In this document: positions 11,313-48,200 of the stretch, in pieces
Layout of the letters: every line of letters begins with the position of its first letter
Numbering within the stretch: position 1 is the first letter of the stretch
From: Nymphaea colorata
Taxonomy: Eukaryota; Streptophyta; Magnoliopsida; Nymphaeales; Nymphaeaceae
Assembly (NCBI RefSeq): GCF_008831285.2
Contig: NC_045139.1
Span: 8,030,204-8,094,203, forward strand
DNA: 64,000 nucleotides
Direction of reading: 5' to 3'
The notes under the pieces: generated by a model
What the model saw: only the letters and a program-made list of their open reading frames with translations
Told to the model about the DNA's origin: nothing
Databases searched by the model: none
Translations under genes and position numbers: made by a program

Positions 11313-11390
11313 TACCACCGCTAGCATAATTAGATAATTAGATCCATATATATATGTGGATCTAATTATCTAATTATGCTAGTGGTGGTA
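11313..11390. repeat. 34-bp arm hairpin 3' of the MATE gene
   Basis: The stretch 11313-11346 is repeated as reverse complement at 11357-11390 with one mismatch, around a 10-nt TA loop. The mirror position in the right arm (about 33150-33180) has only one arm, so this copy arose after the large duplication or was lost on the right. Confidence 0.9.
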
Positions 11391-11556: not shown

Positions 11557-16342
<4,786 letters not shown>

Positions 16343-16689
16343 GGCGGAAAATTAAGGAGAAACACGAACTTTTAATTTCGATACGTTATCGGCTCGTCTT
16401 ATGACCCTGCAACTAATGGCCTGAATGCCTGATAAGCTCTGAAGAAGACACATAAGGCCCTTCATCTCTCATGTCAAAGACGACGAAGAAGAAAAGGTCT
16501 TCTCTCGTTGTCGTGAGAAAGTGATTGCATCGTAGTCGGTGCCACACTACCACTGCTTTAGAAAGGTATGTGGCTCTGGACCAGTCTTGTTGGATGGGAG
16601 CCGTGTGCCGCGCAACATGGCCAATTAGAATATTATGCAGTGACGTGTACGGTAGTTTGTATACATTCCAAAAAACAAAACTGAGAGTT

Positions 16690-17075
16690 CAAGAATGTCT
16701 ATGAAAAAACGAGAGAGAAAGTTTTGTATGTTGTTTCATGTATATTACAAAACCTATTACTAATATGTATATGTTTTCTTTCAATAACAAATAAATATGA
16801 AATAACAAATAAATATAAAATAGTGTTTATGAGATAATTAGCTAAACAACGGACGGACGAATGTATGAGATAACATGTATAAGATAATGTTTATGAGATA
16901 ACAAAAAATTTTGTAAGATAATAAAATAACATACATATATATGAGATAACGAGAAACATAAGTATAAGATAATGTTTATGAGATAATAAGATAATGAATG
17001 AGTGTATTAGATAACGTTAAACATAAGTATGAGATAATAAAATATTTATGAGACAATGAGATAATACTAAAGTTT
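16690..17075. repeat. Degenerate ATGAGATAA-type tandem repeat
   Basis: Variants of TATGAGATAAT and TATAAGATAATGTTTATGAGATAA recur many times with irregular spacing. The block lies in the left arm only; the right arm lacks it. Confidence 0.75.
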
Positions 17076-18145
17076 TTTTACTGCTTAAATAAGAGGTATA
17101 TTGGTCATAAAGATTTACCTTTATAGAATCTCAAATTTTCATTTTGCAGTATTTAATATTTATCCATACAAAAAATTTCGTTTTCTATTAATCATGAGCT
17201 TTTTTTGTATGGTGCACCATAAGATATTATATGCACAAGGGCAGCGTATATAATCAGCTTCACCCGTAGGTAGGCAATTTCTGTTTTGAATTCTTAAAAC
17301 ATCAATGTTTTCTATAGAGACAGCACTTTGAGGTACCAAAGATGAGGAGTTGGATGAGGCCTTATACTGTAGGATGGAGCTTTATACTGTAGGATGATGA
17401 GAGGTTGGGACCCAACTTCAACGTTCAACTGAGCATTAGGTCACCCCTACTCACTCTTGAAAAGATTTAAGAACAACAGAAGCACATAGAAAATAGAAAG
17501 TGTCTTATATTCTATTTATATTGAAACATAAAAAGGCATGCAATAGGTGTTTAACTCACTTAGATGACAAGCATGGAATTTGTAAAGTACGAAACCGTAT
17601 GATATTGTGCATTTTAAGTTCTTATATAGCTGTTCAAAAAATGTTAAGTCAAAACTTAGCATGTAAAATGCATGGAGTATAAATTCTTGCTTAACTTTGT
17701 CCTATGAGTTTGAGACGAGTTTATGAAATCTTAAAATTTTTCTGACTATGAAAATGGCCATCAGGTATTAGCAAATGTAGTCGAATTTGGTTTCCGAATC
17801 AAATTGAAAAGCCAAGTAACATAGTTTATTGGCAAATAAAATCAAAATCAATCGAATCAAAATCAGAATCCTTTTTTGAATAGGAATGGTTCTAAGTTAT
17901 TTTAAATTTTAAAAATAAATCAAAAGGAAATAACATTGAACAAAAAAAAAACTTAAAAGTAATATAAATTCATGAACAGTTGAAAAAGAAATAAAACGCG
18001 ACCCCAAGGACGGGGGGATTCCCTGTCCTTTCCTTTTATTTCCAACCAACTGAGATTAAGCAACGGGTTTTTGGAAAAAGCTACCGTCACAGTTTTTTTT
18101 TTTTTTATATGGGAAAATTAATTGTGCTTCTTTTTTTTAATTTAA
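17076..18145. other. Intergenic insertion in left arm, no gene recognised
   Basis: AT-rich DNA without recognised protein or repeat family. The corresponding place in the right arm (about 27310-27410) is far shorter, so this was inserted on the left or deleted on the right. Confidence 0.45.
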
Positions 18146-23830: not shown

Positions 23831-26523
23831 ATGGAAGGAGAGGACCAACGGCCCTTGCTGAATATGGTAGCCATGGAAACGGGAGCACTGGAACCGTGGA
23901 GTTTGGAGGGGACATTGAGCCTATCAATAGCGCAGGGAGATTTTTCGTGCAATTTGGTGCTGAATCAAAGAAACTGTGGTATCTTGGAGGGCCTGCCATC
24001 TTCACAAACCTTTGTCGGTACTCCCTGGGAGCAGTCACTCAAGCCTTTGCTGGGCATCTGGGGACTCTCGAGCTCGCCGCCGTTTCCATGGAGAACTCCG
24101 TTATTGCAGGGTTCTCGTTCGGTGTTACGGTACCATCGATTTCTTTCTCCTTATCCCCAGAACGGATCAAGAATCTGACTTTTCTTCGTTTCATATGAGG
24201 GAGCCTCCCACCATTTTCTACAAAGCTTTTCCAATCAAATATTACGTAAATTGAACTGCCTTCGTTCCCTTCTGATTCATTCTTTCTTTGGGCTGATACG
24301 ACTTTAACTACGATTCTTTTACTATTTACATGCTAAAATTGCCAAGCACTATTCTGACCTCAATGATCATTTTTCGAATCTGCATTTTTTGGCTTGTAGC
24401 TAGGAATGGGAAGTGCACTAGAAACAATATGTGGACAAGCTTATGGAGCAGGGAAGCTTGACATGCTTGGGATTTACTTGCAGAGATCATGGGTCATCCT
24501 GAACTCCACGGCCCTTGTCCTTTGTATATTCTACATCTTTGCTACTCCCTTTCTGAAACTAATTGGGCAGGCCTCGGAGATATCAGAGTCGGCAGGAACG
24601 TTTGCAATATGGATGATCCCGCAGCTCTTTGCTTATTCCATGAACTATCCTATCGCCAAATTCTTGCAGGCACAGAGCAAGATCATGCCAATGGCCGCAA
24701 TAGCATTTGTTGCTCTGGTCCTCCACACTTTCTTCAGTTGATTGCTCATCATAAAGCTGGGTTGGGGACTTGTTGGTGCTGCTGTGGTGCTCGATTCCTC
24801 TTGGTGGTTCATTGTTATTGCTCAATTGGTGTACATTTTCACCGGCACTTGCGGCGAGCTTGGACCGGGTTCTCATGGAAAGCCTTCACTCATCTTTGGG
24901 AATTTTTCAAGCTTTCATTGGCATCTTCCGTCATGCTTTGGTATTTGATACGATGCTTTAATTTGTTTTTTAATCTTACTAATCATACCCTGCAATTGTT
25001 CTTGCGTTCTCACTGCAGTTTTATTATCATCATGACGGTGGCGGTAATGAATTGAGCTTTCAGCTTAGAGCGTTGGTATTACATGGTGTTGATTCTATTT
25101 GCTGGATATTTGAGCAACCCCGAAGTTTCAGTAGATGCACTATCCATTTGGTACGTAAATAAGCCTGACCTCTCTTCTTCTTCTTCTTCTTCTTCTCTCT
25201 CTCTCTCTCTCCCCCTCACTCTTTCCAACACCCAAAAAAGAAAATCTTCACTGAAAAACTGAAGATGTAGGGACTAGGGAAGCAAGGGCAGAAGAGAGGC
25301 TAACTCATTGAACATTTGTTATCTCATTTTTTACTTGTTTGTAAAGATTTACGTTCATATTGATGTAATTTTTTTGGTCTACTTCTTTATCGCTTCCAGC
25401 TTACTAGTTTCTTCCCTTCTGCAGCATGAATATCTTAGGCTGGACTGTCATGGTGGCCTTTGGCTCAAATGCGGCAATAAGGTATGATTTGGGAACCAAC
25501 AAACCCACATGATCTACTTGCAACCAAAAAGTTACACTTATTAGAGTCCATTTAATAAATGAAAGATTTTGTAAATTGTATTGTGAATCTTCCCCAAAAG
25601 TTGGGGTAAATTCATGTAACACTTTTTTAAGGTATTTCATAGATTTACTTTAATCTTTAAACCATATTCATAAAACATAAAACATGTACATGCTATTCTA
25701 CCTGCCGAATATTGTACTCTTAGGTTTTCATTGAGGTTTTTCTTTATCTTTATCTTTATTTTAGTGCTGACATGACCGGGTTTCGTCGGAAGATGCTGTA
25801 GACAAAATAAAAACATTTGCAATATAAGATTCATCCGACAACCTTTGTTTATACTCTGGCGGGCTCACGAGTTTAGTGAAGTCAGCTGTTTCCGAGCCTA
25901 ATTAAATATCACCAGTGGTGCATTTCCATAAATGGGACTTGAGGACTGAAGTACCTAAATTATTGGTTTAAATAAACTTTGTTAAGGCAAAGTCGGATTA
26001 GCTTAATGGAAAAAAACATCCCAGATCCTCAGCCATGCTTCTGTTAATAATAAATATGTTTTTGGCCGGGAATGAAAACAATATGCCAACAAACATAGGA
26101 AACGATATCAAAACGATCAACTCAAAGGTGTATATAGGTTGGACCAGGATTATGTGAAAAAACATGTCTTTGATTCCCCTGAACCTTATGCCTCTATGTT
26201 TTAAGGTAATGGTTCACGGTACTTAAATTGAACGATACACCACTGCAAAAGTACATGAAGAAGATGTGATTTATGTGATTGACTTTCCCTTTTTATTAAT
26301 ACAGAAGTTCAGTATCCAAAATTAATTGAAGAATGTTAATATGAGTAGTTTTTGGTGGCATTAATGCAGTGTGAGGGTGTCAAATGAATTGGGAGCGGGA
26401 AATCCAAGGAGAGCAAAATTTGCAGTGGTGGCTGTGGTGATCTTCACCTTCATCATCGGCCTTGCCATCGCTGCCATTCTGCTCATACTGAGGGATTACT
26501 ATCCGAAGTTGTTCACAAGCAGC
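23831..26523 (+). pseudogene. Broken, 3'-truncated MATE gene
   Basis: Exon homologues on the plus strand: 23831-24129, 24400-24940, 25064-25150, 25425-25481 and 26370-26523. Exon 1 keeps the start MEGEDQRPLLN but has a net 19-bp deletion, so the conserved part (FGGDIEPIN...KLWYLGGPAIF) is in another frame. Exon 2 has TGA at 24739-24741 where relatives have Trp (FFSWLL), and a 1-bp deletion near 24853 in the CGRAW region. Exons 3 and 4 are well kept. Exon 5 breaks off after the LFTSS segment at about 26523 and exons 6-8 are absent. The damage rules out a normal carrier. The remaining domains are those of the DTX27/28/29-type gene, and it mirrors the relic at 18790-20940. Confidence 0.92.
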
Positions 26524-27099
26524 TATTGGATGGGTTCGAACTTCTTGGCTTAATGCATCCTTTGAAGTAAATTGAACTGACGGTCAGCAAACGTACATGA
26601 GAACTCCAGCCGGTAGCGCCGGATGCACCGCTCTCTTGTTCACCTCTGAATCGAACATGTGTGGCTCTCCGCTGTCAAGGCATGCTACAGTACAGTATTA
26701 TACATAGAGACATTTTATAAATGTCCAATGAATCTGTCTCAGTGATTAGTGTCTCAATGATTAGGGCAAGAGTGTCATCTTGAGAAATCTCACCTCACAC
26801 ATGCAATTCCAATACATTGCATTGGACTATATATCATTGTTTGGTAGTAGAGACATTTTATAAATGTCTAATGAATGTGGACATCAAAAGGCAACCTTGG
26901 TCCAATGGGGCATAGTTGATCATATGACTGGACACAAGACCAAGCCGATTTCTCATTTACTTGCCGGGTCCAATTCCATGTGTGGTTCTACCAGCATAGA
27001 CGTACGAGCCTCCTTGAAGGCGGAGGCACATGGTGGTCGTTGTGGGCAATTGCTCACTCAGTCCCACACCAATTACTTACTAATTATTAAAATCAGATG
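26524..27099. other. Intergenic after the MATE truncation point
   Basis: The part at about 26530-26650 resembles 19130-19250 in the same orientation (GCATCC..TGAAG, CGGTCA, GAGAAC, AGCCGG). AGAGACATTTTATAAATGTC occurs at about 26707 and again at about 26852. No gene seen. Confidence 0.45.
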
Positions 27100-27580
27100 G
27101 AATCTTTCTGAATCGGCCAATTCGAATAGAACAGGCTCCTTTTCGATTGGACGATTCAGGGCTCTTCCAAAATCGGAAGCTTTTTTAAAGAATCGCCGGA
27201 ATTAAATAAGAATCGGTGTTTCAACCTGAATCGCCCGAATTGGCGTGTACATTGCAACGCTCTTGGAGAAAACTTTGGTGACAGTTTACTGTTTTACTGG
27301 AGAGGCACTTTATCTGGCTTCGTACTTATTTATTGTCTCGCGCAGATGAGTATACAATATTTGATCTTTAAAGTAAATATACATGTTTTATTTCCATTTT
27401 TTTGGAAAACATGCTGAGCTTTATTTTTGGAATGTATACCAACTATCATGTACGTCACTGCATGCTTTTCTAATTGACCATGTGCGCCCACAGTAACTTG
27501 GCTGGCGGTCCAGAGCGACCTACCTTTTTAAAGCAGTGGTAGTGTGGCACCGACTACACGACGTTCCTGGTGAAGAACTA

Positions 27581-28698
27581 AGGGGCCGTTTGATGGCCTG
27601 GAAATATATTTCAGAAAATATATTTTTGGAAATATAGTATAGGAAATGGAAAAATGGAATGAGAAAAATCTTTCCGATTCCAATTTTAATGTGTGTGTGA
27701 TGACTCAGAAATATATTTTCAATTCTATATTTCTGAGTTTGATGATACAGAAATATATTTCCACATTCTTAGTCTGACCTGCCTTCACAAGTTTCCAACT
27801 AAAAGACTTTGTAAACAGAAAAATCTGAGGAATGGCAGATTATGGTTCAATATTAGAGGAGATTGAGATCTGCAGCCCAAGAGAAGAACAGTTTGTGAAT
27901 GAAAGCTGAAGCATGTTTTCTGCATTAAGTATACAAAACATGTGAAAATGGAGATATGACATTGATATCTAGGAAGTGAAGCACAAAGCACAACAATATG
28001 CATCAAATAAAGCAACAAAATGTAATATGCAAAGAAATTTCTTGGCTGAACAAGAGAAAGCTGAACAGAATGCAGAAGAGAAAAAATGTCTAAATACTAG
28101 AATCCAAAGACAATTGTGATAAACGGGAAGAACAAACTTCTGCAAATAAACCACATAGAAAGGAGGACGATAGTAACCTTACTTGCCCGATTGATCGTTT
28201 GGGTGGGAGTAATGATGCAAGGAACATGCTCTAATTCAGCTTCAATTCCTTTAGCCAGAGATATAATTATAGGAGAACTAAGCCTTTCCTTCCAATTTTT
28301 GCTAATCTCTTTAAATACCACCCTAGTCTCAGTCGACGGCAAACCATTTATCACAATATCTGCGTCCCATATGGCTTCCTGCAAATTGGTGACAAGTTTC
28401 AATGGGCATAACGGCGTATCAATCATGTTCAAGCAGAAACCATCTTTCAAAATTTCGTCTACACAGGGTCCGCTGCTCGCCAAGCCTGCCTTGGACATAC
28501 TTCAGATAAGCGCAGCGTCTGATCAGTCTTCTAAGTACATCTTACCTTGAATTAATCACTTCAAACAAATGCTCTGCCGTTGCTAGGTCGACATACCTAC
28601 CTGCTCTTCTCCAGATCCTAATCTGAATTTTGTCGCGAAAATGGCCGTAGGTATCTTGCAGAAGCACAAGAAAGACGCTGCCCCAAGCACCAGGACAA
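27581..28698. mobile_element. Insertion carrying a captured gene fragment
   Basis: Left and right arms align upstream of the MATE start except that the right arm has about 1.1 kb extra between CACCGACTAC... (about 27560) and ACAACTAGAGAACACC (from about 28699). The left part, from GGGGCCGTTTGATGGCCTGG, has several AAATATATTTC motifs in both orientations. The right part is a glycerol-3-phosphate dehydrogenase gene piece with intron sequence. Terminal inverted repeats or a target duplication were not established, so the class (Pack-MULE, hAT, Helitron) is open. Confidence 0.6.
28183..28698 (-). pseudogene. Fragment of cytosolic NAD-dependent glycerol-3-phosphate dehydrogenase gene
   Basis: The minus-strand translation begins in the dinucleotide-binding loop ([20 protein letters not shown]), then [92 protein letters not shown] and [11 protein letters not shown]. 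This follows plant GPDHC proteins closely (recognised from memory). It is dead: TAA at 28542-28544 where Glu is expected, and a frameshift near 28460. At 28183 the frame meets a good donor (CAA|GTAAGG), and intron-like DNA continues to about 27850, so the source was genomic DNA, not an mRNA. The first glycines of the NAD site and the catalytic C-terminal half are absent. It lies about 160 bp upstream of the inactivated MATE copy, on the opposite strand. Confidence 0.9.
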
Positions 28699-31600
28699 CT
28701 AGAGAACACCTTTTCCCCTTCTTCGTCGTTGTCATCAGAGATGAAGGGCCTTATATTTCTTCTTCAGAGATGATCAGGCCATTAGTTGCAGGGTCATAAG
28801 ACGAACCGTTAACCTATCGAAATTAAAAGTTTGTGTTTCTCCTTAATTTTCCGCTCATGGAAGCAGAGAACCAACTGCCGTTGCTGAACGACAATCTCAG
28901 CAATGCCGACGGTGGGCATGGAAACAGAAGAAGTGGAACCGTGGAGTTTGGAGGGGACATTGAGCCCATCAATAGCGCAAGGGGGTTTGTCTTCCAATTT
29001 GGAGCCGAATCAAAGAAACTGTGGTATCTTGCTGGGCCTGCTATCTTCACAAGCCTCTGTCGGTACTCCCTGGGAGCAGTCACTCAAACCTTTGCTGGGC
29101 ATCTCGGGACGCTCGAACTCGCCGCCGTTTCCATGGAGAATTCCGTTATTGCAGGGTTCTCGTTCGGTGTTATGGTACTGAATCTACTGATTTCTTTTCA
29201 ATTTCCTTCTTCCCCACCATGGTTACTTACAGGGGTAATTTTCAGCAATCAATTTCACATCCAGAATTGGTCCATAGTCGTTTCTTTGCGACTGAGTTCC
29301 AGATGGGTGAAATACCGTACTTCAAGACCCAATAGAACATGACAAAAGATGCGTTCTAGAATATGAGATTTTAGGATGCAAGAAGGGAGCTCTTTAAGCT
29401 GCATATGTCGAGGATGGTCTGTTAGGCATTGAGCAAACACAATTTATTCATTACATGCTATCAACATCTTTTGACGGGCCTCTGATCATTATCAGTTAGC
29501 ATTTTCAATTAGATGTACTGCCATCTTCCTTTCTGACTTACGCTTTCTTTGAGTTGAGATGATTTGACTGCAATTCTCTTATTACATATGTGCACCAAAA
29601 TTTTCAAGGATCTGTTCTGAACTCAATGATCAATTCTCTGACCTTTTGCATCTTATGCTTCGTAGCTAGGAATGGGAAGTGCATTAGAAACTCTATGCGG
29701 ACACGCCTACGGGGCTGGGCAGCTTGACATGCTTGAGATTTACATGCAGAGATCATGGGTCATCCTAACTCCACGGCCCTTGTGACTTGTCCTTTGTATA
29801 TTATACATCTTTGCTACTCCCGTTTTGAAACTAATTGGGCAGGCCTCGGAGATTGCAGAGTCAGCAGGAACGTTTGCAATATGGATGATCCCGCAGCTCT
29901 TTGCTTATTCCATGAACTATCCCACAGCCAAGTTCCTGCGGCTCAGAGCAAGATCATGGTGATGGCTTTAATAGCACTTGTTGCGCTGGTCCTCCACACT
30001 TTCTTCAGTTGGTTGCTCATCATAAAGCTGGGTTGGGGACTGGTTGGTGCTGCTGTCGTGCTCGATTCCTCTTGGTGGTTCATTGTTATTGCTCAATTGG
30101 TGTACATTTTCACCGGCACTTGTGGCCGAGCTTGGACCGGGTTCTCATGGAAGGGCTTCACTCATCTTTGGGACTTTTTCAAGCTTTCATTGGCATCTGC
30201 CATCATGCTCTGGTATTTGATACAATAATCTACCTTTTACATCTTTTTAGTGACACCAGCCAATTATTCTTGCCCTCATAGTTTTACTATTATGATGGTG
30301 GTGGTGGTTGCGGCGGTGGGTTGGGTTTCCAGCCTAGAGTGTTGGTATTACATGGTGTTGATTCTATTTGGTGGATACTTGAGCAACCCTGAGGTTTCAG
30401 TAGATGCACTATCCATTTGGTAACTGACTCCCTCTCTCTCTCTCTCTCTCTCTCCGCCCCCAGTAAATGAAAACCTTCAATTTGCTTATTGTTGGTGGAT
30501 GTAGAGAAGTAGACAGCAAAAGATAGCCTCATGAACAAACATTTCTGATCACATGTTTTACCTTTTAAATTGCTGCTTTCACCTTACTTGTTCTTCACTT
30601 CGCATGTGCAGCATGAACATCTGCATGAACATCTTAGGTTGGACAATAATGGTAGCCTTTGGCTCAACTGCAGCAATAAGGTACGACAATGGTCAAACCT
30701 GACATGATTCTAGTACTACACAGATTTTTCTGTGGAGGTTTTTTCTCTATTTTATTTCAACATTGCCTTGATAATATTTTGCAGTTAGACATGATAGACA
30801 AAATAATTTATTCGTAATTGCAATTAAAAATGTATTCATGTATTGCAATATTGTTACCTGGACTATGTGTGACGCAGAACAAAATACTTGACCACAAGCC
30901 AACTCGTCGTTGGGTTTGTGGAGATTATTATTATTTTTGTTATTGTCATTATTATTCTTATTATTATGGCAAGTTAATCACGAACTTTCTTTACTTGATA
31001 AGTCGTGGAAGACGATAAGATTGTTTAAATATTGCTGCAAGCCACTGTCACGAACCAAGCTGCCTCTTTTGGTTCGTATGATGACAAAAAACATATTTAT
31101 AACATATTAAGTATCAGCATGGCTTGTTATAATATGAGCATGGCTTGTTCTCTGTGAAAACTAGTCACAACTCACAACTGAAAATAAGAAAATCGAAAAA
31201 CTTTTAGTTCGTATCATGACAAAAAACATATTTATAACATATTAAGTACATATGAAATATAACATATCATGCATATGTATGTATACGTGTAGAATAGTTC
31301 AAACTTTGAAAAAAAACTTGAGCAAGTTTTGTTGCATTAATGCAGTGTGAGGGTGTCAAATGAATTGGGAGCAGGAAACCCAAGGAGGGCAAAATTTGCA
31401 GTGGTGGTCGTGGTGATCTCCACCTTCATCATCGGCCTTGCCATCTCTGCCGTTCTGCTCATACTGAGGGATTACTACCCCAAGGTATTTACCAGCAGCC
31501 AGGAAGTGCAAGCGCTGGTCAATCAGCTCACCCCTCTCCTTGCTCTCACCATAGTCATTGACAATGTCCAGCCCGTTCTCTCAGGTAATTTTCACACTGC

Positions 31601-31705
31601 TCCCTTGTTTTCACAAAGAATGATTACCACGTAAATTTTTTATGCATTCTTGAGTCCCATAAACAAGCGATTTGGTATGTAGCACTACCGTTTATTCCAC
31701 ACAGA

Positions 31706-37559: not shown

Positions 37560-39930
37560 GAACCCCAGCTGCTAGGGCCCTAGAGAAAAGATTTGGCTAT
37601 GGGTCCGGATCTCATTACACATATTCAGAACTACCTGGGTCTAGTTATATGAATATGAATCTAAATACATGGATCTTTACATTCAACATCAGATCTGGAT
37701 CCAAACAAGAGAAAAATAACAAAACAAGATCCAGACTTGGGTGTTAACTCTAAGTCAACTGATCAAGTCGCCTTTGGATCCAATATGCGTCGGATGTGGA
37801 TCAGGACCTCGATCCGCCACTGGAAGCCACACTTAAAGTTGTCTATCAATATCAAATCGAAGATGATAAAGTCAGCTTGATGTAGATATTAAGCAGGTAC
37901 GTGACCCACCCAACTCCATAAAAACTTCTTAATTTTAGGCAGGGTAGTTGTGTATGTGCTCCGATTAACTAGCTAGTCAAAATGATTCTATAGACGAAGG
38001 CTTATTCAAGTGGGCTTTCTCATGGTCATCAAGGTTCGAAATGCAATGAAATCATGTAAAACATCCTTCAGCAACTGTGAAACATATATATCCATCTAAA
38101 TTTATCATATATATTACCTGAAATTTGGTCTAACTAGAAATTTTGAGATTGAGTCGTATTCATTCAACGGTAAAGTCAAAAGGTTTTAGCTGAAGGATAC
38201 TAATCTATCTTATTATTGCAATCGATTGGGTGCATGTAGAGCTATAAGGCACTGACCTGGGTTTGGTGTGGGCACCCCGTATAACTATGCCTAAGCATAA
38301 GTCCAACACATGATAATAAAACTTTTACAAAGGTTTATGCAGGTTGGGTTGGGCAGTTGCCCACACCAGCCCATGGTAGCTCCACTACTACTATATTCAT
38401 CATAATATTGTTCACCAATGGTAAAGAGACATATAAGAGAAATGACGCTTTAATTTTCAACTCTATACAAGTATATATTTTTAGAGAGTGAGTGAATGAT
38501 GGCTCTAGTTATCCAAATTGCCATCCATCTAACTATGGTTGTTCATTTGAAGCAGACCGATGGTTGAGAAACAAAGAATGTGAAAAAAAGTGTGAACTAA
38601 TGCTACTATCATTTTTTTCTCTGCATTTTTCTCCTAATTATCCATTGGATCAGATGGTTAGGTGACTTTAAAATCCAAAATCACCATTCAATTTTTTCTT
38701 AATTTCAACAGCAAGTGATGATTCTAGTTATCCACAGTCGTTGGCCATTTAACTTGGGTGGTTGAGAGAAAAAGAAGGTAAGAAAAAAGTGTGAACGGAT
38801 TATTAGATGACAAAAAAATGTCAATCACTTTTTTCTTGTTGTTTTCCTTTTAATTGTTGGTCATGATGAATCAGGGGCATTTCATTAGATGACTGTGTGA
38901 TTCTGGAAAGTCAAAGTCACCATTCAATTTTCTTAATTTCAGATATTAATGCTCATTTTCAAAAAATTAAAAGAAGGTAAGAAAAAAGTGTGAACGGATT
39001 ATTAGATGACAAAAAAATGTCAATCACTTTTTTCTTGTTGTTTTCCTTTTAATTGTTGGTCATGATGAATCAGGGGCATTTCATTAGATGACTGTGTGAT
39101 TCTGGAAAGTCAAAGTCACCATTCAATTTTCTTAATTTCAGATATTAATGCTCATTTTCAAAAAATTATATATTATTGTTTGGCTCACCAAAATTTCTGG
39201 CTTCAACCTGGTTAGAGATTATAACTATTGCTTAATTAACTTCTCAACAAAATACGTGAATCCAATGGTACACTGGATTGGAGAACCAGCATTTTTAATG
39301 TTCTTTGGTGCCACGAGTCAGTGAGTTGAGAAGGTAATTAAGAAGAACGCAAGACAACGGAACATTAAAATGAGCAATAAAATCACGTAACGGTCAAATT
39401 AGAACCCACAAACCCCTTAACTCATCCCTGTGTCTTTCACTTTGCCTTTAAATTCACGTCAAATGTCCCTTCTGTCAAATTGAAGATGTTGAATTTGAGA
39501 AGACCGTCTTTCAAGACCCAAAGAAAAGCAAGTTTGCAAGTTCGGTCATATTGCTTGTTCGGAAGAAGTAAGACGCACATATACACAACCTTTACAACAT
39601 TGAATAAATTGTTTAATTATTTGTCTCAATCTTTGTGATAGATTCATAGAACGTTGTGTTCCACAAAATGCAGTATTTTTGTTACCAAATGTTTCCAGTA
39701 AAATAGTGCTGTAGGAGAAGGGTGGTGAGTTATCCAAAGTTGCAAAATCATATAAGTGTTCGTATATATAGTCCAACATATCATTATGAGCTGAGGTAGG
39801 TGCACAATTTGGAAACTGTGCTTAAAAGATATTGATTGGAAAAGCTCAATAAAGTTTCTAGCAGTAGAGGACCAAAAGAGTGGCTATGCCTCACTATATT
39901 TTTACAAATTTAGCCAACATTGTGGGAGCT
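37560..39930. repeat. Duplicated segment, inverted copy of 20990-22400
   Basis: Reverse-complement matches run in reversed order to the 20990-22400 segment (see that entry). This copy is longer because of extra DNA at about 38170-39530, including the 199-bp tandem duplication. The part at 39300-39460 repeats the TTCTTTGGTGCCA...GTAACGGTCAAA block also found at 13200 and 19300. No gene. Confidence 0.75.
38772..39169 (+). repeat. 199-bp tandem duplication
   Basis: 38772-38970 is followed by an apparently identical copy at 38971-39169 (both begin AAGAAGGTAAGAAAAAAGTG and end ...TTTTCAAAAAATTA). A diverged third unit appears at about 38575-38770. The lack of differences points to a recent event. 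Confidence 0.95.
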
Positions 39931-45200: not shown

Positions 45201-48200
45201 CCTCAAGCAATTTATTCTTTGCTGAAAGATCATCTATTTTCATTTCTAAGCTCTGCAGTTTAGCATCCATCTCCTGGCTTGTTATCTTTGAGTTGTCATT
45301 ATCTACTATTAATGTTCTTATCATGCCTTCCAAAATCTGCAACAATGACTTTGCGCCTGCTTGCTTCTTATCAAGCAATATGTCATTTCCCCCCAACTTT
45401 TGAATTATTTTCTCCATACCTGACATTAAGTCTGTTAAGTCACTTGTCTTCCTTGCCATATCCTCATTATTGGAGATGAGTTGCTCATATTCCTGCTTCA
45501 GGTGTGCAAGGTCATGATTCTGAGCTGCCAGGACTGCCTTGAGCTCCTTCTCTTCATTGATGCAAGTACTGACCATTTTCTGTAGTTTCGGAAAATAATC
45601 AAGTAGGTAGAAGATCTTATCCATGGGACTTTGAGACATTGAGCTTTCTAATGTCTTTGGGTAATCGATGTCAAGCTGCTGAACTTTCTCACAGAGAGCT
45701 GCTATTTGAGCTTCAGATTGCATATAAGCTGCATGTGAAAATGAAAAAGGCTGTTAATAAAACAAGAGTGAAATGCCAAAAAATTCATGATAAGTAAATA
45801 TTTACAATAACTAAGTTAATCACCTTGATCTTTAACAGAAGTTTGGTACAAAGATGAGAGTTCCACTTCTTTTTCCCTTAGTGAATTCTCTATCTTCTGA
45901 TAATCCGCCACCTTATTGGCCGATTTCTGACAGGAGATTTGCAATTTCTCTAGATCATCCTCCATTTGACAAATTTTTGCTTGACTTGTGTTTCTCTCCT
46001 GTAATGCACCATCCAGGGCATGTTGAACCTCCATTAATTTATTTTGCAGCTCTTTGTTATCATCCTCTAACATGGAAATTTTTGTTTCACTTAGGTTTTT
46101 TTCTTGCAGTGCACCATCCAGCGCCTGTCCAACCTCTCTTGATTTATCCTGAAGTGCTTCTAGAACTTCCTCCAATTTGGAAATTTCATTTCGACTTAAA
46201 TTTCTCTCTTGCAATGCACTTTCCAGAGCTTGTTCAACGTCTAAAATTTTATTTTGCATCCCCTCTGTTTCCTTGCATCTTCTCTCATCAACATCCTGAA
46301 GATGCTGGAATTTATGTCTAACATCTCTCACAGACAACAGCAAACTCTCAGCTACTTTGACACAATCATCAGAAGATAGACATTCTCTTTGATTTGGTTC
46401 TTCATCGTTGTTAGGTTTTGCCAACAGGGAGAACATGCCACCATCTGGACTTGTTAACTGGACCGTAGACTTAATATCTAGTACATCATGCTCTTCTATA
46501 TTTCTGAGCTCATGTGATGCTTCAGTGCATGCGGAAAGTAAAATATCAATATTTTTCTGCAAGACTGACACAGTGCTTTGAGTTTCTTTCTTATAGGCCT
46601 CAAGATCATTTGTCTTTACTCTCAGGTACTCCTTAGAATCTAACAAGCTCACCACTTTATCTTTTATTTTCTCTAGCAGCTGTATCAGATAGCCAATTTG
46701 TTGATCTAAAGATGTTGAGAAACTGTCAAATTTATCACTGAGAAGTTTCACATCAAATTGCGAAGACTCAAAACTGATTTCATCCATGACATTGGACTCC
46801 CCCATTCCCATCTCATGTACTGAAGTCTTGTCATTTAAATGGTGATCGCAGTTTATGCCTGAAGCAATCTGCTTAATTGAAGAATTCTGAGCAATTTAGA
46901 AGAATTAGTTGAGTGAAAGGTCTTGTTAGCAAAACTTAGTCAATAACGGAAAGTAATTCATCTATCTATAAAAAGAATAAAAACCAGATCCATGTGACTC
47001 TTTAAATGTGGACAAAAGGAGTGAATAAAAAAGAAAGCAGATAAGACAGTAATAGCCCTACAATCTAGATCAATATGAATGACATCAAAGCCTGTTCCAC
47101 TGCATTAAATTTGTGCTGATTTGCCAAAAACTACGAAGAGCCATGTATATGGTAAACACATTGTGTTTAGCCATATCACCTGCAGGTTTCATCAGCTTAA
47201 ACAGACCTTACAGGTTCTGTGACCCTTTTTTCTTTTCTTTTGTTAAATCAGGAAACATGCCCTAATAATCATGAAAGAAAAATCTTACATTTTACATGAA
47301 ATTCTGGTGCACTCTTGGCATGCAGTTTCATTATTTCTTAAAGGTAGGAAACATGCTCTATATTCTTGAAAGACACACTGGAAATTGTATATGTATAATG
47401 TAATTCTGTTGCACTATGGGCCTTTGGTCTTTCCTTTCATTTTGCAGTTTCATTATTTCTTAAAGGTAGGAAACATGCTCTATATTCTTGAAAGACACAC
47501 TGGAAATTGTATATGTATAATGTAATTCTGTTGCACTATGGGCCTTTGGTCTTTCCTTTCATTTTTGAAGAAACATACATAATATACTAGATCAGAGATC
47601 CTAAAGCAATAAGAAGAATAAAAATGAACAATAAATGTTTCAACATGTGCCTTATATTCAGTATCAATTGGAAATAAAATATAGCAAGTACTCCTGAAAG
47701 TCGTAGCAACAGAAAGAACTTATGATGAAGCAAAGATTGTGGAGTCCACATGTTTAAAAAATTACCTCTTCACCACTTTCAAAACTTCGTAGTGTCACGT
47801 CTTTTTCATCCAATAACTCTGCATCCTTCATCTGGCTGATGTGACTCACTATTTCTTGAAGCAAGCAATCCATTGCCCTCAACCCATCAAAAATTTCTGA
47901 AGACCTTTTTGTTAAAAGTTGTATCACCCTTTTCGAGTTGATCTTAATGTCCTCAAGATACTTGAGTGTATCATCTATTTCCAAGGTCTGTTTCTCTAAT
48001 CTAGATTGGGTTTCAGCTAACTGTTCCATACAGGCGGACAACTTGGTCTGCAGGTCACCAACTATTTTTTCATTTGCTAATTCAGCTTTTTCCTTTTCCT
48101 CATGAAGTGAAGAAAGATTTGTCTCTGCCTTTGACAATGCATCTTCCAGAGACTCGATAGCTGCATGAGCATCCACTAGCTTGAGAGCCTGCAATTTAAC

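Follow-up and report, generated by a model that had tools for sequence, protein, structure and literature searches.

How a piece of a gene for glycerol-3-phosphate dehydrogenase (GPDH) came to lie just upstream of one MATE transporter copy, and to be absent from the inverted twin of that copy, is the question raised by this locus. The 64-kb window, i.e. the whole stretch of DNA analysed, looks like plant nuclear DNA with several MATE transporter copies, and the family PF01554 was recovered in 3/3 exon-2 frames submitted to Pfam (those of copies L, M and Z, the frame of R not being among them). By self-comparison, copies L (~10.6-18.5 kb, with its gene in minus orientation) and R (~26.9-33.9 kb, plus strand) constitute the left and right arms of an inverted duplication, the identity of which ranges from 76 to 96% by block once short simple-repeat matches are excluded. 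Two further copies are present, M at 23.8-26.5 kb and the more divergent Z around 55-61 kb.

Local alignments of the two arms delimit the difference. L 16674-16532 aligns with R 27424-27557 at 77%, and L 16515-15724 with R 28691-29472 at 86%, leaving on the right a block of 1,133 nt (27558-28690) opposite 16 unmatched nt on the left (16516-16531, minus strand), which represent the sequence of the empty site. A blastn search of the window with 27558-28705, admitting E values up to 1, found no left-arm match. The initial annotation had placed a GPDH fragment in one arm only, with edges at 27581-28698 and an end some 160 bp upstream of the MATE copy; the arm alignments and blastn bear out the one-sidedness, the edges agree to within about 25 nt with those given here, and the distance from the insert edge to the right-arm MATE ATG (28857) was measured as 166 nt. 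The arms do differ by ~1.1 kb on the right, as it stated, but this is not their sole mismatch: L 16675-18143 (1,469 nt) stands opposite 103 nt in R (27321-27423), and R 27015-27079 (65 nt) opposite just 10 nt in L. The left-only stretch 16675-18143 is a second one-sided insertion or loss, partly rich in repeated TATGAGATAAT-like units. Over 27000-29500, an Rfam search returned 0 matches.

Further along the arms, 31297-31642 and 13638-13984, which enclose a MATE exon, are identical in 334 of 347 columns (96%), and the stretch adjoining this pair in only 306 of 419. Such a juxtaposition suggests gene conversion between the inverted MATE copies, and exon constraint may contribute to the 96% identity. 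Self-comparison also brought out two exact head-to-tail repeats in the window, one at 38770-39168 (200 nt matching at 100% with an offset of 199 nt) and the other at 47321-47565 (123 nt at 100%, offset 122 nt). A palindrome is present at 11321-11382, the two 24-nt arms of which (11321-11344 and 11359-11382) are exact inverted copies and possibly part of another fold-back element.

Regarding the content of the block, the minus strand from 28691 to 28183 translates as GAWGS through TQTINRA of an NAD-dependent GPDH, just as had been read initially, with one further base that opens the following codon. Residues 34-92 of the 134-aa stop-to-stop frame match PF01210 (NAD_Gly3P_dh_N) with an E value of 2.3e-6, the score of 28.1 bits exceeding the family cutoff of 23.1, whereas the other two Pfam families listed for this frame fall under their cutoffs; the two GAWGS-side frames submitted, out of three, gave no GPDH match by themselves in the Pfam search. 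The fragment is disabled by an in-frame stop, TAA at 28544-28542, and by one net frameshift near 28463. Against a provisional version of the corresponding segment of Arabidopsis GPDHC1 (cytosolic), 135 of 177 aligned columns are identical, and in the same comparison the likeness ceases upstream of GAW. The fragment would derive from a plant cytosolic-type GPDH, as judged partly from that provisional reference.

No second GPDH-like stretch was found in the window, tblastn of two pieces returning themselves and three matches at E values of 0.17, 3.9 and 5.7; in particular, neither blastn nor tblastn detected homologous GPDH sequence in the left arm, the presence of which would have told against the initial reading. 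Beyond the window, the clean 92-aa GPDH piece had no confirmed relative in prokaryote genomes (97 pattern matches) or in viral contigs (22 pattern matches) and no match in plasmids, a PDB search of the 134-aa frame at E up to 1 yielded 4 matches with no GPDH among them, and no occurrence of the peptide words was found in the papers searched.

The GPDH coding sequence closes on the minus strand as A|GTAAGG, a predicted phase 1 splice donor (28177..28182, from the sequence and reading frame only) with its GT at 28182-28181, so placed that a codon would be split after its first base. Downstream of it, 27772..28182 is intron-like, being T-rich on the GPDH sense strand: in 200-nt windows from 27800 to 28199, the AT skew of the plus strand runs from 0.25 to 0.39 (maximum 0.385), and it is near 0 below ~27800. 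Plant introns are usually T-rich on the sense strand, and the DNA that follows the donor would be an intron of the parental GPDH gene. No next GPDH exon was recognised in the block when the stop-to-stop ORF list was compared by eye to the provisional reference. In maize and Arabidopsis, a conserved group of GPDH genes has been described as having five exons (PMC6039019), and there are 3-4 introns for some soybean GPDH members and 7-10 for others (PMC12400704), the excerpted text of both sources giving no intron position. Because the predicted donor and T-rich intron-like DNA appear to have been retained, copying at the DNA level rather than via RNA is favoured, in line with the initial preference for this route over a retrocopy.

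The far end of the block, beyond the intron-like DNA, contains a MITE-like fold-back stretch of 187 nt (27582..27768). Its left end reads TAA|GGGGCCGTTTGATGGCC, followed by a perfect inner inverted repeat (14/14) between 27599-27612 and 27750-27763, and at its right end 5 nt replace the outer 17 and adjoin TTA (27769-27771), hence flanking trinucleotides that differ, TAA on the left vs. TTA on the right. Folding of 27579-27772 gave a z of -7.1 against 100 base shuffles, vs. -0.5 and -0.1 for two control stretches; in a sampling of the window (60 shuffles), z was -6.4 and 5 of 160 stretches scored lower, which by eye comprise three with TA runs, one palindrome and one GC-rich stretch. The absolute fold energy is unremarkable, 11 of the 160 sampled windows lying lower. 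Local alignment of the two ends scored 20.5, equalled by 2 of 1,000 shuffles, and begins inside the GGGG end, the bases just inside of which pair with 27750-27763.

The GGGGCCGTTTGATGG end had been proposed at the outset as one to trace through the genome. It does not bound the whole insert, as it terminates a separate fold-back inside the block and is unmatched at the opposite edge. Taken as an end of the whole insert, GGGGCCGTTTGATGGCC was rejected too: it has 1 match in the window at up to 3 mismatches, and no opposite-strand partner over 27600-28799, where the best candidate agrees at 12 of 20 nt. Since its stretch folds back internally, the GGGGCCGTTTGATGG end most likely belongs to a short element lying within the intron-like part and not to the insert as a whole. 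With the TAA next to this end, the stretch presumably resembles PIF/Harbinger (Tourist-like) MITEs. The target duplications of PIF/Harbinger elements are given as TTA/TAA in the excerpted text of PMC8903248; the stretch at hand shares with such MITEs the fold-back and the TAA beside the GGGGCCGTTTGATGG end but departs from them by an incomplete other terminus and by its TAA vs. TTA flanks. Between it and the left edge of the block remain 24 nt (27558-27581) with no counterpart in the left arm.

The edges themselves were searched for repeats by comparing 27540-27590 with 28680-28715 at eight sizes, k = 3 and 5 to 11, against 300 base-shuffled pairs. Direct matches gave no sign of a target duplication, the best ones for k = 5 to 11 being equalled in 150 to 295 of the 300 shuffles, e.g. 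the exact 5-mer GCACC in 178 of them. In inverted orientation, an exact 8-bp match, TCCTGGTG, is present at both edges (27565-27572 and 28688-28695); it was equalled in 1 of 300 shuffles, the best 7-mer in 13 and the best 9-mer in 17, with 8 sizes tried, and when stretches of the window were paired at random, 622 of 20,000 pairs contained an inverted 8-mer match. Its right copy overlaps GPDH codons and largely reads as such. Besides, the hexamer CACGAC, spotted post hoc, is shared by the left flank and the left arm at the point from which the arms align again (505 in 20,000 by chance for any such match) and could be the remnant of a decayed target duplication. As the blocks flanking the site diverge by 14 and 23%, a worn target duplication could be missed. 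The initial annotation had advised looking for one against the left arm; between the edges no direct match exceeded chance, and about 16 nt of the left arm instead have no equivalent in R.

Concerning the order of events, GPDH homology stops and arm homology starts at about the same base, ~28691. This coincidence favours insertion on the right over loss from the left arm, and foreign DNA would therefore have been placed into older promoter sequence. Were the block older than the duplication and later lost from the left arm, one breakpoint of the deletion would need to coincide nearly to the base with the boundary of the foreign DNA, and two events would be required vs. one for insertion. What speaks for such a loss is that the window contains no outgroup copy of the promoter by which to polarise the change, the two promoter pieces having no above-chance match in it apart from the opposite arm. 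A left-arm loss is accordingly disfavoured on account of the shared junction at ~28691 and appears highly improbable, and insertion at the DNA level after the duplication is very probable.

The course of events that we propose begins with the inverted MATE duplication, the block arriving afterwards. From a plant GPDH gene of cytosolic type, ~1.1 kb made up of part of a coding exon and the beginning of the downstream intron would have entered the promoter of the right-arm MATE copy by DNA-level copying, presumably in a single uninterrupted stretch from a single parental gene; the intron would have carried, or later acquired, the MITE-like insert of about 190 nt. As for the route, a double-strand break would most likely have been repaired with unrelated DNA as filler, with a loss of ~16 nt of the target, and the piece would have decayed afterwards as a pseudogene. 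Granted a DNA-level insertion after the duplication, this repair route is reasonably probable; taken as a whole, from the post-duplication copying of a GPDH gene piece to its use as break-repair filler and its decay, the scenario is on balance slightly the more credible one.

Filler DNA at repaired breaks is documented in the excerpted texts of PMC4423477 and PMC3706897, and a gene-containing fragment serving as filler in that of PMC3445842, the last two sources dealing with plants. Between two barley cultivars, 38 indels (12.7%) with non-homologous stretches were ascribed to SDSA repair (PMC3706897, in excerpt). The block resembles such filler in combining a foreign gene piece and intron-like DNA with a small target loss and without clear terminal repeats or target duplication, but differs in that, here, copying from an ectopic template is something we infer. 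Other mechanisms, too, can leave a non-homologous insert that replaces few target bases and has no clear transposon ends, and the inverted 8-bp match leaves some doubt. The same barley comparison, as excerpted, left 91 indels (30.4%) with no ascribable mechanism (PMC3706897), so that missing signatures single out no route.

It follows from the edge-repeat results that repair filler ranks first and that a decayed Pack-TYPE element is its main rival. According to the latter explanation, the block would be a non-autonomous transposon (MULE, hAT, PIF/Harbinger or CACTA) or a Helitron with captured GPDH sequence, the ends or target duplication of which have decayed. Pack-TYPE elements do hold gene fragments between terminal repeats, and together with target duplications these repeats are their marks in the excerpted text of PMC8903248; the 8-bp inverted match TCCTGGTG at the edges could be seen in this light, as could TAA|GGGGCCGTTTGATGGCC, a MITE-like terminus no more than 25 nt from the left edge. 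Like Pack-MULE, Pack-hAT, Pack-CACTA and Pack-PIF, the block brings a fragment of an ordinary gene to a new site; unlike them, its edges share just that 8-bp match of uncertain weight and display no target duplication above chance, direct edge matches of 5 to 11 nt never exceeding it. Moreover, the GGGG end is unpartnered on the other strand, its inner bases pairing with 27750-27763, and nothing fitting Helitron ends was seen by eye under the general rules for such ends. The carrier of Pack-MULE, hAT or Helitron style put forward initially is not supported, and such an origin is possible yet rather unlikely. The block could also be a composite of two or more unrelated pieces (the 24 nt, the MITE part and the GPDH part), which template switching would have linked during a single repair. 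In its favour, the base composition shifts at ~27800, from an AT skew near 0 to 0.25 to 0.39, and 27558-27581 is of no known source; an intron-nested MITE, however, would yield the same shift, and a composite origin is improbable.

In the right-arm MATE copy, R, the predicted exon 1 (28857..29174, plus strand) is open and the predicted exon 2 (29666..30212, plus strand) carries frameshifts of -1, +7 and -1 relative to the other copies. Copy M has a one-base deletion (-1) in exon 2 and an in-frame stop at 24739-24741 (within 24400-24960) and, judging from these lesions, looks like a pseudogene; in L, both of the exons examined, 1 and 2, are open. Exon 2 is thus broken in R and M alike, and M shows no such insert upstream, the block giving no blastn match in the window to the DNA upstream of M. 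Over 271 gap-free codons, the silent/replacement changes unique to one copy number 7/9 in R, 19/9 in L and 19/22 in M. Because R has few unique changes, its breakage may be recent; the codon data do not fix the order of this breakage relative to the insertion. An effect of the insert on the right-arm MATE promoter, as contemplated initially, is a guess.

The block looks like ordinary gene-fragment copying at the DNA level, an event of a well-known kind in plant genomes and one case of the scattering of exon pieces, for which the left arm conveniently shows what the site looks like when empty. Its importance would rise only if the insert alters MATE expression or belongs to a family of mobile copies. 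One far-fetched reading, to which we attach next to no credence, is that the right-arm promoter is transcribed through the block, generating antisense RNA against the exon of the parental GPDH gene and so silencing this enzyme of glycerolipid metabolism; if true, an insertion into a promoter would couple a transporter locus to the silencing of a glycerolipid enzyme.
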